DNA of 43,223 bases from Planctomyces sp. (GTDB lineage: Bacteria > Planctomycetota > Planctomycetia > Planctomycetales > Planctomycetaceae). The notes under the pieces were generated by a model. It made no database searches, was not told the origin of the DNA, and was given only the letters and a program-made list of their open reading frames with translations. Where the stretch lies: NCBI GenBank assembly GCA_005778115.1, contig SXKJ01000420.1:1-43223 (forward strand), written 5' to 3'. A program made the position numbers and the translations under genes. Shown one piece after another: positions 22,131-29,211 of the stretch (positions are counted from its first letter, which is position 1; every line of letters starts with the position of its first letter).

Positions 22131-22406
22131 CGTGGACCCCTAACGAGAGAAAGTGGAAGAGCGGGAATCGGCTGAATGGGTCGCGAGATTATCGCGGTCC
22201 GGTGAGACCTTCCAGGTTGTTCTGGCGAATCTGTGACAGATGCAGTTCGGCTTCGCGGTCGGCAAAGCGGTTTCAGTTCGTTGACGGTGGAAAAGCAAGA
22301 GCCGTATCATCTTCGGCTCACGCGACGGGCGAAGTGCCGGTCGCTCGAGTTTCGACCGCCGGAAGTTCTTCTTGGCGGATTTGATCACTTCGGCAGCCTC
22401 CAACGG

Positions 22407-25079
22407 ATGTTTGAAACCCTCGGCAAGCTGGTATCACGTACGTGGCCGCTATTGCTGGTCGCCTGGCTGGCCGTTTTAGTGGGCTTGAAGTGGGTGGCCC
22501 CTGCGTGGAAAGACGTCGCGGCCGATGGTGAGTTCGCGTTCCTGCCGAAAGATTCCCCCAGCCGCGTCGCCGAGGATTTATTCCGGAACGGTTGGGACGA
22601 GCCGCTGGCCAGCAATGTCGTGATCGTCGTAAGACGCACACCGGCAGGGCTTCTGGAAAGTGACAAAGCCTTTATCAACGATGTCTTACAGAAAGAGCTG
22701 GAAGCCATCGCCGACAAGGATCGCGAAGCGAGAATTCGACAGAAACAAGTATTACTGAAATCCAAATCGTCGCCCGAGATCTCCGAGGAATCCACCGCCA
22801 GCGAAGAGAAATACATCACCATTCGCACGCTGTCCGACAAGTCGGTCGGTCGCCTCCTGAACAGTGAAGACAAGCAGGCGTCGCTGGTTCTGATCGAGTT
22901 GCCGACCGAGTTTTTGGATGCTCGCAATAAGCCGCTGATCCAGGAGATCGAAAAACTCATCGGCAAAATCGATCGCCACGGAAAACGCCAGGCAGGGGAA
23001 CTGCATTCCGAGGGTCGGCCGCCGACCGAGCGAATTCCGCCCGGATTGGATTTAGCCTTGAGCGGTTCCGCCACGGTCGGACGCGACATGATTCTGGCGG
23101 CGGAAGAAAGTTCGAGCCGAACCGAGCTCTGGACGGTCGGCCTGGTCTTGCTCTTGTTGGCTCTGATTTACCGCGCTCCTCTGATGGCGTTCATCCCCTT
23201 GATGACCGTGGCGGTCGCGACCGAGATCTCGCTGGCATTGCTGGCCTGTCTGGCCAAACAGGGGGTGCTCGACCTCTTCGCTGGGATTGAAGTCTACGTG
23301 AAGGTGCTCAGCTACGGGGCCGGCGTCGATTACTGCTTGTTCCTGATCGCTCGGTACAAGGAAGAATTGGATGAGGGGGCGACGCTGGACCAAGCCGTGG
23401 CGAACTCACTGGAAAAGGTCGGACACGCTCTCGTCGCCAGTGCCGGGACGGTGATTTGCGGCATCTTCATGATGTACTTTGCCCAATTTGGCAAGTTCAG
23501 CCAGGCGGGAATCGCGATCACAGTGGGCTTGGTCATCGTGCTGATGGCCGCGTTGACCTTCGCCCCCTCCTTAATGCGGCTGGCTCGGCAATGGGCCTTC
23601 TGGCCGCGGGTCGCCCACGCCAGTTTGTCGAGCACCGCCGGTTGGGTCTCGACCACGTCGCTGTGGTCTCGGCTCTTTGAACGCCAATGGGGACAGGTCG
23701 CCTGGAATCAGGTCAGCGGAATGGTGCGCCGTCGCCCTGGAGTGGTGCTGTTGGTGAGCGTCCTGCTGATGTCGCCGTTTGCCTGGGTTGGAGTCCAATT
23801 TCGCGGACATCTGAGCTACGGGTTGCTCAGCGAACTGCCCCGCGACACCGCAAGTGTCATGGGGGCGGAAGCGGTGGCGAAGCATTATCCCAAAGGGATC
23901 GCCGGGCCGATCACCGTGCTGATTCAGTCGGATCGCGAATCGTTTCTCAACGAGGACGACGAACTGCTCTCGGACAACGCAAATCAGCTCATCCAAACAT
24001 TGGCCGGGCAGCTTCGTGACCAGCAGGATCGCCTGCAGCTTGCAGATGTGCGGACGGTATTGCATCCGTTTGGGGGCGGCTTATCGACGATCGCCAACGA
24101 CGATGCCGCGAGCCGGCGAAATTCATCCGAAATCCAACTGGCGAGTGGTTCGAGTCCACTCGGCGGGATCAAAGCTCGGCATGCTCAAAAGCGAATGCAG
24201 CAGCACTACGTCAGCTCGCAGGGAGAATTGGCTGGCAAAGTCTTGCGCGTCGATTTGGTTCTGCAAGAGGATCCGTTTGCCCGCAACAGCATCGCCCAGT
24301 TTGAGTCGATCCGCCGCTCGATCGAGACTTCCGTTCCCGCCGGACTCAAAGTCTTCGCGCTGGGGCCGACCGCCAGCATCCGCGATCTCAAAATCGTGAC
24401 CGATGGCGATCAGATTCGAATCAATTCTTTGGTGTTGGTGGGAGTTTTCCTGATCCTGATCGTTTTGCTCTCGCACACGTCGGTCGGAAAACTCATCGGG
24501 GCCATCGCGACACAGGGAGACACGTCCGCGGTTCTGCGTGAACTCGTGAGCCGCTTCTCCATCACGGTGTATCTGATCGTCAGCGTCTTCTTCAGCTACC
24601 TGGTGACGTTAGGAATCACCTTCGCTGTGTTCTGGGCGATGGATCCTTCTGGCTTTGGAGGTCTGGACTGGAAGGTGCCCATGTTCCTGTTCACGATCCT
24701 GATCGCGGTGGGCGAAGACTACAACATCTTCCTGATGACGCGCATCGACGAAGAGCAACAAATTCATGGCCCGACCAACGGCGTCATCTCCGCGTTGCAA
24801 AAGACCGGCAGCATCATTTCCAGTTGCGGCATCATCATGGCCGGCACGTTTTGTTCGCTGCTGGCGGGTTCGCTGGTTGGTCTGCACCAACTAGGGTTCG
24901 CCTTGGCGTTTGGCGTGCTCTTGGACACGTTTGTGGTTCGTCCCATCCTCGTGCCGGCGTTTCTGGTTCTGCTGCATGAAGGCCGCTTGACCAGTTGGAA
25001 CCGTTTATTGGCTCGTGCCGAGGTCGCGTTGCCCGCGACCGCCGAGCCAACACCCTCGTTGGAAGTCAGAGGCAAATAA
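22407..25079 (+). CDS. MMPL-family RND transporter
   Basis: An 890-residue inner-membrane protein with the duplicated MMPL layout: one N-terminal membrane helix (WPLLLVAWLAVLVGLKWVA), a large periplasmic loop, five or so helices including LSYGAGVDYCLFLIARYKEE, a second helix and loop, and a final helix set with VGEDYNIFLMTRIDEEQQ. The paired acidic motifs (GAGVDYCLF, GEDYNIFL) are the proton-relay positions of the family. Members export lipids or other hydrophobic compounds; the cargo here is unknown. The frame is open upstream to 22233, but alignment and the first membrane helix favour ATG 22407. Its stop overlaps the next start by one base (TAATG), so the two are translationally coupled. 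Confidence 0.88.
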   Translation: MFETLGKLVSRTWPLLLVAWLAVLVGLKWVAPAWKDVAADGEFAFLPKDSPSRVAEDLFRNGWDEPLASNVVIVVRRTPAGLLESDKAFINDVLQKELEAIADKDREARIRQKQVLLKSKSSPEISEESTASEEKYITIRTLSDKSVGRLLNSEDKQASLVLIELPTEFLDARNKPLIQEIEKLIGKIDRHGKRQAGELHSEGRPPTERIPPGLDLALSGSATVGRDMILAAEESSSRTELWTVGLVLLLLALIYRAPLMAFIPLMTVAVATEISLALLACLAKQGVLDLFAGIEVYVKVLSYGAGVDYCLFLIARYKEELDEGATLDQAVANSLEKVGHALVASAGTVICGIFMMYFAQFGKFSQAGIAITVGLVIVLMAALTFAPSLMRLARQWAFWPRVAHASLSSTAGWVSTTSLWSRLFERQWGQVAWNQVSGMVRRRPGVVLLVSVLLMSPFAWVGVQFRGHLSYGLLSELPRDTASVMGAEAVAKHYPKGIAGPITVLIQSDRESFLNEDDELLSDNANQLIQTLAGQLRDQQDRLQLADVRTVLHPFGGGLSTIANDDAASRRNSSEIQLASGSSPLGGIKARHAQKRMQQHYVSSQGELAGKVLRVDLVLQEDPFARNSIAQFESIRRSIETSVPAGLKVFALGPTASIRDLKIVTDGDQIRINSLVLVGVFLILIVLLSHTSVGKLIGAIATQGDTSAVLRELVSRFSITVYLIVSVFFSYLVTLGITFAVFWAMDPSGFGGLDWKVPMFLFTILIAVGEDYNIFLMTRIDEEQQIHGPTNGVISALQKTGSIISSCGIIMAGTFCSLLAGSLVGLHQLGFALAFGVLLDTFVVRPILVPAFLVLLHEGRLTSWNRLLARAEVALPATAEPTPSLEVRGK

Positions 25080-26368
25080 TGCTGCCATCGTTCAGGTGTG
25101 CTGGGTTCTTGGTTCTCTTCGCCCTGACGGTGGTTAGCCAATCGGCGGTTGCTCAAGAGTCCGTGCCGGGCTGGCACTCCAATTTGGACGACGCTCGCAA
25201 AGTGGCCGAATCGACGGGCAAGCCGTTGTTCATCACGTTCCGCTGCGTCCGTTGACCGGAGTGCTGGCAGTGGGATGGGCAGGTTGCTCAGGAAGATCCC
25301 GAACTCCGTCAGGCTCGCGCTGATTTCGTTTGCGTGCGCGTGACCTCGATGAACCGTGTCGACATCGCGCGCTTCGAGTTCGACTACGACACCACTTGGG
25401 CGGCGTTTGTCACCGACTCGAAACTGCGGATCTACAGCCGCTTCGGAGGACGCGACGAGCACGAACCAGACGCGCGGCTGAGCAAAGCCTCGCTGCTGCA
25501 AACACTGCGTGAGTCGCTCGCCGCCCATAAGACGACGGTCGAGCGTACTGCCGCCGGCGCATCAACGGAGCTCAAAGACGAGGAGTCACTTTGGCATCCC
25601 GAACCGAAAACTTCTCAGACACCACTCGACATTCCGCTGCTGCGAAAGGGACATCAAGGCTGCGTCCACTGCCATCAAGTTCGCGAATACAGCTTGTTGC
25701 AGGCGTATCACGACGGCCGCTTCAGCCGCGAGTTGCTGTTCTCGTATCCGTTGCCGGAATCGCTCGGCATTGAGTTCGACCGCGCCCACGGACATCGCGT
25801 GGCTCGCGTGCAGGACGATTTGCCGGCGGCCGGGCACCTCAAACCGGGCGATGTGGTGACTCGCTGTGAGGATGTGCCGATCCGATCGGAATTCGATCTG
25901 CGCTGGGCACTGCAACGACTGCCGGCCACTCGCGACCGTGTGAAGCTGAGCGTCGGCGGGGCAGGGGGGCGCGAAGTGGAACTCGCGCTACCATCCAACT
26001 GGCGGCAATCAGAATTGAGCTGGCGAAAATCCTCACGCAGCGTCCCCGCCGATTGGGGCTTCCGCGGAGCCACGCTCGCCAAGTTTGAACGCCGCGAAGC
26101 CGGACTTCCGGAAACAGGATTGGCGATCATGATCCTGTCGGTCAAACCGCGCGGACTGACTCAATCGCTCGGCCTCCAAAAAGGAGACGTGATCACCGCA
26201 CTCTCAGGCGACTCACGCGAACGAACGCTCGATCGACTGCGATCCGACATGCTGCGCCGCTTCGCTCCCGGCGACGAAATCCAACTGACCTTGCGCCGCG
26301 GTGGGGAAACCTTGGAGCTCAAGGGGAAGTTTCCCGCATGGTTCACCGAAGAGAACTCGGTCCCCTGA
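25079..26368 (+). CDS. Thioredoxin-like, c-heme and PDZ protein with in-frame TGA (selenoprotein candidate)
   Basis: Residues 1-24 are a signal peptide. A thioredoxin-like domain follows: DDARKVAESTGKPLFITFRC, VR, TGA at 25253-25255, then PECWQWDGQVAQEDPELRQA, and later FDYDTTWAAFVTDSKLRIYS. With TGA read as selenocysteine the motif is U-P-E-C, matching the CxxC redox site, so the stop falls exactly on a catalytic Cys position. The frame continues open to 26368 (429 residues) with a heme site GCVHCHQV near residue 195 and two PDZ-like regions (about 225-300 and 345-420). A weak hairpin can be drawn right after the TGA (pairs 25256-25266 with 25280-25292, a G-rich loop). Alternatives are a Cys-to-stop mutation (TGC or TGT to TGA) or an error. 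It is coupled to the MMPL gene. Confidence 0.75.
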
Positions 26369-26414: not shown

Positions 26415-27806
26415 TCAGTTCGGGATCGCACGCCCGTGCGGATCGACGCCGGGGCGGTCGAGATCTTGATCCAGTTCGGCGAGCAAAGCGGGATCGAGGA
26501 AGTGTTCGACCTGCTCGGCGCTCTCGTGGAATCGGCCAGTGCCGAGCACGAAGTGTTTCGCCAAGAACGATTCCCACAGGCGATGCGAGCGGACCAAGGT
26601 TCGCGCGGCTTCTCTGCCAGCGTCCGTGAGTTGCACGTCCGAACCGGAACCAATCAACCACCGTCGGCGGAGCAGCACCCAAGTGGCGAGTCGCGTCAGC
26701 CACGATTGCGTCGTGAGGGAACGAAGCCAAGCCGCCCGCTCGGTCGCCAACGAAACATCAGCGGAGGCCGCAGCGGATTCCTCGAAGCGATACAGTCCGC
26801 CGAGCACGTCTTCGCTGGCGATTCGCAGCCTGAGCAGCAGTCGATGCCAGACTCGGCTGACGAGCCCGTACTTTGGTCCGAGCAACATCGCCGAAACAAA
26901 CAGGAATCCGGCGGCGGCGGCCATCATGCCGGCCGTGCTTGCGTCATGCACGTCGGGGATGCCGACGCTCTCTGCGATCATCGTCGGCAGCGTCAGCGCC
27001 GAAACATGGCCGAGCACCGAACTCAGTGCGGCGATTAACAAGCTCAGCCCGATCATCCTCGGAAGTCGATCGGTCAGCAGATATGCCGTTGCCGGAGGAA
27101 TGATGAGCATCGCGATCACCAAGATGCTGCCGACGCTCTCGAATGCGGCCACCAACGTCATCGCCGTCACGCCCATCAAGCCGTAATGCATCACATGCGC
27201 TGGGATGCCCTGCGTCGTCGCCAGCGCCGGGTCGAAGGCGCTCAGGCGAAGTTCTTTGAACAACATCACGGTGAGCAGCAAGTTGATGACCAGCACGACG
27301 CCAGTGACGAAGACGGCGCGCGGAATCCCGGAAGCACCAACCGTTTCCAACGGAGCCATTTCAATCGCACCGTACAACACGCAATCGGGGTCGATGTGAA
27401 CGTCATCCGCGACCGCTCGAATCAGCAGCAACCCCAGCGCGAACAACGACGTAAACACGACTCCCAGCGCGGCACTGCTTTCCACGTTGCCGAACTTCTG
27501 CAATGACTCCGTCATCCAGGCGGATAACACGCCGACGATGGCGGCTCCCAAGCACATCGCCACATGCCGCACTGACAATTCCGTTGCCGGGCTGATGACG
27601 TTCGCCTCGACCAGCCAATGCGATACGAAGAACGCGGCAACAATTCCCAACAACGATGTGTGACTGATCGCATCCCCCATCAAGCTCTGTCGCCGCAGCA
27701 GGAGAAAGCACCCCGGCAGTGCGCACGCCATCGCGGCCAACGCCCCGATCAGGATGATCCAGGTGTCGAGCGAAGTCCAAGTTTGAAGGGGGGCGAAAAG
27801 GGACAT
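26415..27806 (-). CDS. Metal ABC transporter permease with DtxR-like C-terminal domain
   Basis: The N-terminal 300 residues are an ABC-3 family permease for Mn, Zn or Fe, with about eight or nine membrane helices, LLLRRQSLMGDAISHTSLLG near the start and AAFESVGSILVIAMLIIPPA later. The C-terminal 130 residues are not membrane but resemble MntR/DtxR: a winged-helix-like part ending LTDAGREAARTLVRSHRLWE, then HESAEQVEHFLDPALLAELD and VDPHGRAIP. The Glu, Glu-His positions of MntR metal site (AExxEH) are conserved, and RSH matches the His77 position. The start MSLFAPLQ at 27806 is chosen because it precedes the first helix; longer starts are possible. It is the last gene of the four-gene unit. Confidence 0.88.
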   Translation of the reverse strand: MSLFAPLQTWTSLDTWIILIGALAAMACALPGCFLLLRRQSLMGDAISHTSLLGIVAAFFVSHWLVEANVISPATELSVRHVAMCLGAAIVGVLSAWMTESLQKFGNVESSAALGVVFTSLFALGLLLIRAVADDVHIDPDCVLYGAIEMAPLETVGASGIPRAVFVTGVVLVINLLLTVMLFKELRLSAFDPALATTQGIPAHVMHYGLMGVTAMTLVAAFESVGSILVIAMLIIPPATAYLLTDRLPRMIGLSLLIAALSSVLGHVSALTLPTMIAESVGIPDVHDASTAGMMAAAAGFLFVSAMLLGPKYGLVSRVWHRLLLRLRIASEDVLGGLYRFEESAAASADVSLATERAAWLRSLTTQSWLTRLATWVLLRRRWLIGSGSDVQLTDAGREAARTLVRSHRLWESFLAKHFVLGTGRFHESAEQVEHFLDPALLAELDQDLDRPGVDPHGRAIPN

Positions 27807-27819
27807 TGGGCGTTTAGGT

Positions 27820-29211
27820 TTAATTGATCGCCGCACCCGCGATCGGGTGCGGACTGGGTGGAATCCCCTGAGGCAAATGACTGTCGAGCTGTCGCTCCAA
27901 ATCCGCAAGTTGTTGCGGATCGAGCACATGCTCGATCCCATCCGCACCTCGATCCACGAGTCGCGGATCGAGGTCGGTTTGAGTGAGCAAGTAAATCTCC
28001 CAGAGACGATGGCGTCTCACAGCATCACGAGCTTCGGCTGCTCCGCGCAGAGTGAGTTGGTATCCACCCGTGGAATTCGTCTCCAATAAACGCTCGCGCA
28101 CAGCGGACGAGACCAGCTTTTGAAAACGTCCGGAAGGCCATTGCCGCATCGCCAGCAATTCGAGGTCGTCGATCTCGTACTTGGTCAGCGACTCTTGCGT
28201 TGTTTCACGGGAGCCATGAATTGGCTCGAGGAGTTCGTAACATGCCCGCAGTAGATCACTGCGGCCAATGCGTTGCTCGAATTGATGCTGCAAGCTCCAC
28301 TTCGGCCAGAGGCCCCTTTCCTTGCCGAAGACGAGGCTCACCACGAACAACCCCGCGCCGGACAGCACAATGACTGCTCCGGCGGCGAGCTTCGGAAACG
28401 CGGCACTGAGTACGACGCCTCCCGCACAACTCACCCCTCCGATCGCCGCGGCCAGCCACGACATCACCTTCAAGTCGTTGGTCCAAAACCGCGCAGCCGT
28501 TGGTGGGATCAACAGCAAAGCTACGACCAGCAACAGGCCAACGCTCTGCAAACCGATTAACGTGACAGTGACCGCCATCAACGTTAGCAGCCAATCGAGC
28601 AGCATCGTGCGATAGCCTCGCGCGGCGGCGAACTCTTCGTCGAAGCAGAGCAACGAAAACTCCTTGAACACGCCGCAACAAAGCATCGCGATGACTACCG
28701 ACACGACTCCGATCAGCCAAACGTCGGAAGCGACCATCGACGCGGCCTTGCCGAAAATAAAGTTCGACAGCCCCGCCGCATTCCCTGTCTTGGTTCGCTG
28801 CACGACGGTGAACAGCGCCATGCCCAGACCAAAGAACAAACCCAGCACAATCGCCAACGCGGCGTCTTCTTTGATTCGCGTCCAGCGTCGAATCGCCAAT
28901 GTCATTGCCATGCCGAGCAACCCGGAAGCGAACGCTCCGAAGAGCAAGACGCTCGTGGATCGACCGCTGCCCGGAGCCAACCGCTCCGCCAGCAGAAAGG
29001 CGACCGCGATTCCCGGCAGCGCCGCATGGCTCACCACGTCGGCAGCTAAGGCTCGCTTGCGCAGTACCAAGAATGTTCCAACCAGTCCACCGCTGATGCC
29101 CAGCATGGTTGTTCCACCCAACACCACTCGCGTGTTGTAGTCACGCAACGAAATCGCGCGAGCGAACAACTCCCACAGCGAATCGACGGCAAGTAGCGAT
29201 GAGTCGCACAT
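27820..29211 (-). CDS. Second metal ABC permease with DtxR-like C-terminal domain
   Basis: A paralogue of the following permease, 463 residues. The membrane part has VGTFLVLRKRALAADVVSHA, FKEFSLLCFDEEFAAARGY and LQSVGLLLVVALLLIPPTAA, typical of ABC-3 permeases that work as heterodimers. The cytoplasmic C-terminal part again looks DtxR-like: YEIDDLELLAMRQWPSGRF (helix-turn-helix region), YQLTLRGAAEARDAVRRHRL and ADGIEHVLDPQQLADLERQL. Here the first of the MntR-type acidic ligands is Asp (ADGIEH) rather than Glu. The start codon overlaps the ATPase stop by one base (TGATG). The soluble tails may sense the transported metal and gate the transporter; this is inference. Confidence 0.88.
   Translation of the reverse strand: MCDSSLLAVDSLWELFARAISLRDYNTRVVLGGTTMLGISGGLVGTFLVLRKRALAADVVSHAALPGIAVAFLLAERLAPGSGRSTSVLLFGAFASGLLGMAMTLAIRRWTRIKEDAALAIVLGLFFGLGMALFTVVQRTKTGNAAGLSNFIFGKAASMVASDVWLIGVVSVVIAMLCCGVFKEFSLLCFDEEFAAARGYRTMLLDWLLTLMAVTVTLIGLQSVGLLLVVALLLIPPTAARFWTNDLKVMSWLAAAIGGVSCAGGVVLSAAFPKLAAGAVIVLSGAGLFVVSLVFGKERGLWPKWSLQHQFEQRIGRSDLLRACYELLEPIHGSRETTQESLTKYEIDDLELLAMRQWPSGRFQKLVSSAVRERLLETNSTGGYQLTLRGAAEARDAVRRHRLWEIYLLTQTDLDPRLVDRGADGIEHVLDPQQLADLERQLDSHLPQGIPPSPHPIAGAAIN

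Follow-up and report, generated by a model that had tools for sequence, protein, structure and literature searches.

The window analyzed here is a stretch of 43,223 nt from contig SXKJ01000420.1 (C406 in our numbering) of a Planctomyces sp. draft assembly (GCA_005778115.1; 7.4 Mb in 515 contigs, with a stated completeness of 94%). On its forward strand, positions 25079 to 26368 hold a predicted Trx7/PDZ-type selenoprotein gene that begins with ATG at 25079 and continues through a TGA at 25253 to 25255, a reading that draws on a match to the family model NF041199 and on dN/dS. According to both the open reading frame list and the sequence, this TGA is the sole internal stop in a frame of 430 codons that closes with a terminal TGA at 26366 to 26368, and translation through it gives a product of 429 residues. 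Immediately upstream on the same strand is an MMPL-family exporter gene (22233 to 25079; PF03176, 280.6 bits), the TAA of which overlaps the selenoprotein ATG by one base (TAATG). An upstream MMPL match was found in 13 of 17 near relatives and in 0 of 30 remoter loci, for which the flank extends only about 1,500 bases; the adjoining exporter may have a role alongside the selenoprotein. The window also contains two adjoining ABC-3 metal-transporter permease genes on the minus strand (26415 to 27947 and 27820 to 29211), both of which encode, at the C terminus, an Fe_dep_repr_C domain (DtxR-type, metal-binding); transporter and repressor parts are unusual fusion partners.

The predicted protein opens with a hydrophobic stretch ending in AVAQ (residues 1 to 26; 25079 to 25156), which, based on the translation and a modeled helix at residues 6 to 19, is probably a signal peptide. 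A Thioredoxin_7 domain occupies residues 32 to 95 (25172 to 25363; PF13899, 38.2 bits against a cut-off of 27) and includes the internal TGA as residue 59, in the context F-R-C56-V-R-U59-P-E-C62. Cys56 is encoded at 25244 to 25246, the predicted selenocysteine (Sec) by the UGA at 25253 to 25255, and Cys62, the second residue of the canonical CxxC register, at 25262 to 25264. Further along, the c-type heme attachment motif CVHCH (residues 195 to 199; 25661 to 25675) has C, H, C, and H at columns 195, 197, 198, and 199, and this CxxCH is kept in all 166 aligned copies among the matches listed. A Pfam search of the whole protein returned no cytochrome family at an E value of ≤1, leaving CVHCH without a heme domain model; heme may be bound at the motif. 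Two PDZ domains follow, the first at residues 229 to 291 (25763 to 25951; PF13180) and the second at residues 352 to 388 (26132 to 26242), where a second PF13180 stretch coincides with a PF17820 match of 22.5 bits, below the cut-off of 27.

A first-pass annotation of this DNA had described one TGA in an otherwise open 430-codon frame, the context FRCVR-TGA-PEC, and c-heme and PDZ parts, and all of these features are present as described. It had also regarded heme and PDZ parts as unusual partners for Sec; the protein in fact belongs to a known family, NF041199 (“Trx7/PDZ domain-containing (seleno)protein”), which it matches at 354.2 bits (cut-off, 300) over profile positions 2 to 389 of 390. 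The CxxU site of that family appears in the window’s protein as Cys at 56 and TGA at 59.

Homologs of two kinds were compared. Genome contigs searched with the Cys-substituted protein yielded 17 loci from near relatives (43 to 86% identity), and TGA stands at the residue-59 column in 17 of 17, even though the query had Cys there. A search for NF041199 in 392 genomes of the phylum yielded at least 150 matches. The window, the 17 near loci, and 148 of the 149 other NF041199 matches listed were aligned (166 copies), and the counts that follow refer to these listed matches. Column 59 is TGA in 116 copies, TGC in 37, and TGT in 13 (Cys in 50), and column 56 is TGA in 66, TGC in 87, and TGT in 13 (Cys in 100); neither column has any other state in the 166 copies. 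At column 62, 156 copies have Cys and 10 have another residue. Comparison of homologs at the TGA column, which had been proposed at the first pass, thus returned only the two states that the Sec reading predicts. All in-frame TGAs inside the aligned stretches (182 of 182) lie at column 56 or 59, and this confinement, together with the TGA shared by every near relative, argues that the codon is not there by chance. In-frame TAA codons occur near the C-terminal end of three copies (L039, L042, and L137) and in a further, broken copy, L164, which has its motif in a different frame and was therefore left out of the alignment. L164 is a second family copy in the window’s own genome (contig C289, 971 to 2557) and has Cys where the window has Sec (FRCVPCEAC); it is broken by a frame change and the TAA and is either a decaying gene or an assembly error.

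For codons 60 to 429, dN/dS between the window and each near relative was 0.13 to 0.36 in 16 of 17 comparisons (dS was saturated for L032), indicating that the part of the gene past the TGA is under purifying selection as protein.

Just downstream of the UGA lies a candidate SECIS element, identified by minimum free energy (MFE) folding, comparison, and covariation. Its core hairpin, UGGGCA-GGU-UGCUCA (25276 to 25290), pairs 25276 to 25281 with 25285 to 25290 (6 bp) around a GGU loop (25282 to 25284), 26 nt after the UGA. The minimal core reached −4.8 kcal/mol in the hairpin search, and −8.9 kcal/mol was attained only with a lower stem, GGGA/UCCC, which differs among relatives and extends the hairpin to 25272 to 25300. 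The MFE fold of 25250 to 25300, which the first-pass annotation had suggested computing, does include the UGGGCA-GGU-UGCUCA hairpin, but its energy is no better than that of shuffled sequences (equal or lower in 115 of 200; z, 0.26). With a fold energy this unremarkable, the hairpin is established through comparison and not through stability. The hairpin matched no Rfam family; the single hit reported was a chance-level snoRNA on the opposite strand. The specific structure drawn earlier, 25256 to 25266 paired with 25280 to 25292 around a 13-base loop, gave way to the core at 25276 to 25290: the arms of the earlier structure averaged −6.6 kcal/mol in TGA copies and −4.1 kcal/mol in Cys copies, versus −10.6 and −1.4 kcal/mol for the core arms.

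The comparison rests on a hairpin search that allowed loops of 3 to 9 nt with G in the first two loop positions, 16 to 37 nt after the codon, with the bSECIS model in the available text of PMC13188914 used for comparison. Among the matches listed, the best hairpin places its loop 25 to 26 nt after the TGA in 113 of 116 TGA copies (elsewhere in the other 3) versus 0 of 50 Cys copies, in which hairpins are scattered elsewhere (42 of 50) or absent (8 of 50); AGGT stands at the loop position in 6 of the 50. The best energy is −7.5 kcal/mol or lower in 73% of these TGA copies versus 26% of these Cys copies. In the window and each of its 17 near relatives, a 30-nt stretch folds into a hairpin with its loop at the GGU position, with energies between −7.6 and −13.4 kcal/mol.

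Covariation was assessed in the 114 distinct TGA copies among the matches listed, with shuffle controls that, like the Fisher tests used here, ignore relatedness. Pair 22-32 forms in 93% of these copies versus 65% in shuffles, a level that 0 of 500 shuffles reach, and does so by varied means (GC, 64; GU, 15; AU, 11; CG, 11; UA, 5). Pairs 23-31, 21-33, and 20-34 form more often than in any of the 500 shuffles, and 19-35 comes close to this (3 of 500). No covariation support came from 24-30, which hardly varies, 25-29 (52% versus 49% in shuffles), or 18-36 (178 of 500), mostly because variation there is too small, and no pairing was found beyond 18-36. A further trace of the RNA appears in the codon usage. 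Codon 68 (25280 to 25282), which reaches into the loop, is CAG in 110 of 116 TGA copies listed, that is, in 110 of 110 Gln codons and never CAA; Gln codons in the same genes, with codon 68 itself included in this background, are 79% CAG and 21% CAA. The SECIS loop thus seems to dictate the protein sequence at residue 68. The Cys copies mostly have Glu or Asp at this residue.

These results bear on whether the TGA is a mutated Cys codon or a sequencing error, and the gene a pseudogene or artifact. TGA is one base from TGC or TGT, Cys occupies column 59 in the 50 copies noted above, and the broken Cys-type paralog indicates that damage to this family in the assembly is not unheard of. Such an event would nonetheless have to account for a TGA common to all of the near relatives and to most of the listed family, for purifying selection past it, and for a hairpin that is conserved and covaries in TGA copies. 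As far as the comparison reaches, it refutes mutation or error, which we regard as very improbable.

Recoding of the TGA as Sec finds further support in the window’s genome, where selA (436 bits), selB (350.6 bits; cut-off, 242), selD (288.3 bits; cut-off, 125), and a tRNA-Sec (65.8 bits; gathering threshold, 47) with the anticodon UCA according to ARAGORN were all detected. The set selA, selB, selC, and selD that the first-pass annotation had named as worth looking for is thus complete, in line with the Sec machinery reported for planctomycetes in the available text of PMC4807772. The frame that holds selD (L018, contig C424) is open for 879 residues, over twice as long as the model with its 311 positions, and this length suggests a fusion protein. 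Across the 392 genomes searched, 120 had a copy among the NF041199 matches listed. A strong selA match was found in 70 of the 76 genomes with a TGA copy and in 16 of the 44 with Cys copies only (Fisher P, 1e-10, relatedness ignored), where a genome with no entry in the matched part of the selA search was counted as being without selA. The six TGA-copy genomes without a strong match (G280, G214, G212, G082, G164, and G264) are drafts with stated completeness of 67 to 92%.

A leaky TGA, or its organism-wide reassignment, in which Trp or Cys is inserted without selenium, would by itself leave an identical read-through frame. That the terminal stop of this same gene is TGA argues against reassignment. 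Two further facts argue against both variants, which we consider exceedingly unlikely: TGAs in the aligned stretches occur at no columns but 56 and 59, which otherwise always have Cys, and the genome has the full Sec machinery. Equally hard to credit is that the mechanical ORFs on the two sides of the TGA represent two products, a peptide of 58 residues terminated by the TGA and a second protein that starts afresh from GTG at 25334, since such a restart would lose the signal peptide and the active site, the codons between the TGA and the GTG are conserved as protein, and the Cys homologs are continuous over the site.

We therefore return to Sec at the TGA, as originally proposed and now backed by the machinery, the Cys/TGA column, the hairpin, and selection past the codon, and we are highly confident in the prediction that TGA 25253 to 25255 is read as Sec in an exported redox protein. 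Machinery, codon conservation, hairpin, and purifying selection together make up a recoding setting that comparison of sequences strongly indicates; beyond it, we infer export, the direction of the redox reaction, and the substrate. A gene caller that halts at the TGA would split the gene in two and miss its active site; reading the codon correctly is therefore important when this genome and its relatives are annotated.

The thioredoxin-like domain places residue 59 at the active site. A model of the domain (pLDDT, 82; pTM, 0.81) has a strand at residues 50 to 54 and a helix from residue 60, and it was used because the full-length model was weak (pLDDT, 70; pTM, 0.40). The best Foldseek matches (TM, 0.5 to 0.7) were AGR2, a Bacteroides cytochrome-c-biogenesis-related protein, ERp18, and the DsbD C-terminal domain. 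When the whole-protein profile was compared with solved structures, PDZ proteins and no thioredoxin appeared among the best 60 of 135 rows; the domain-only profile found thioredoxin folds, including a weak match to disulfide isomerase 3fk8 (E value, 0.004), in which U59 and C62 align with the CxxC and C56 aligns with Ala. This register, together with the domain model, agrees with the earlier suggestion of U-x-x-C at the CxxC site and would put Sec59 at the site of the nucleophilic Cys of thioredoxins, with Cys62 as its usual partner and residue 56 as a third. Residues 56 and 59 are always Cys or Sec in the 166 copies and residue 62 is lost in 10, so residues 56 and 59 may form the essential pair, in keeping with the CxxU under which reviews enter the family.

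Based on these features, the UGA at residue 59 would be decoded by SelB, with GTP and Sec-tRNA(UCA), under the direction of the mRNA hairpin at 25276 to 25290, and the terminal UGA at 26366 to 26368, which has no such hairpin setting, would stop translation. In the exported protein, Sec59 would be the N-terminal nucleophile of a site of the thioredoxin type and would form a mixed selenide-sulfide with a substrate, Cys62, or Cys56, and C56-x-x-U59-x-x-C62 could serve as a three-residue redox relay.

The window’s copy is of the one-Sec form (Cys56, TGA at 59). Many relatives have two TGAs, at residues 56 and 59 (UxxU), and these account for 66 of the 116 TGA copies and 66 of the 166 aligned copies among the matches listed (L039, L042, L045, L067, and 62 more). 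Their TGAs are nine bases apart and are followed by a single downstream hairpin, which presumably serves both UGAs. In the same matches, the states at columns 56 and 59 are UU in 66 copies, CU in 50, and CC in 50, and no copy has Sec at 56 alone. A FastTree tree requires a minimum of 4 changes at column 59 and of 22 at column 56. Hairpins are somewhat stronger in the UU than in the CU copies listed (median, −10.5 versus −8.5 kcal/mol; P, 0.002). The family therefore offers a clean comparison, with few Cys/Sec switches at 59, many at 56, and one conserved hairpin, and this contrast makes it testable why some lineages have a second Sec and how one SECIS serves two UGAs. As a tentative picture, less likely than not, a relay of residue 56, Sec59, and Cys62 might operate beside a covalently bound heme, with Sec59 as a stable core, residue 56 switched at least 22 times, and one SECIS hairpin acting on two UGAs. 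Were this true, the Trx7/PDZ family would be a natural experiment on the benefit of a second selenium atom.

The single-Sec family has already been cataloged, and the relatives with two Sec are the fresher point. In the available text of PMC13188914, a 2026 review, the entry for NF041199 gives CxxU and a single Sec and refers to the Global Ocean Sampling study; the second TGA is absent from that table row, whereas 66 of the 116 TGA copies listed here have two. The window’s copy shows no difference from NF041199, sharing its C-x-x-U motif, its domains, and a whole-length match. The accessible part of PMC9312934 likewise lists a “PDZ domain-containing protein” with pfam13899 (Thioredoxin_7) and CxxU. 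Mentions of UxxU in the available passages of three papers concern other families, subscription journals and database annotations lying outside the search. No paper linking selenoprotein, Planctomycetes, thioredoxin, and PDZ was found. The Global Ocean Sampling study itself (PMC2398784, available text) describes a “Putative secreted serine protease MucD” selenoprotein with CxxU, represented by 2 Sec and 12 Cys sequences. Compared by description, it has CxxU in common with the window’s protein and a PDZ domain would explain the MucD name, so it is probably a member of the Trx7/PDZ family. More remotely, at 13 to 21% identity, residues 32 to 95 share the thioredoxin fold with the DsbD C-terminal domain, AGR2, and ERp18, and the CxxC of disulfide isomerase 3fk8 corresponds to U59-x-x-C62. 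Unlike DsbD, AGR2, and ERp18, the window’s protein has a predicted Sec in first position, an additional, strictly conserved Cys/Sec at 56, a pair of PDZ domains, and CxxCH.
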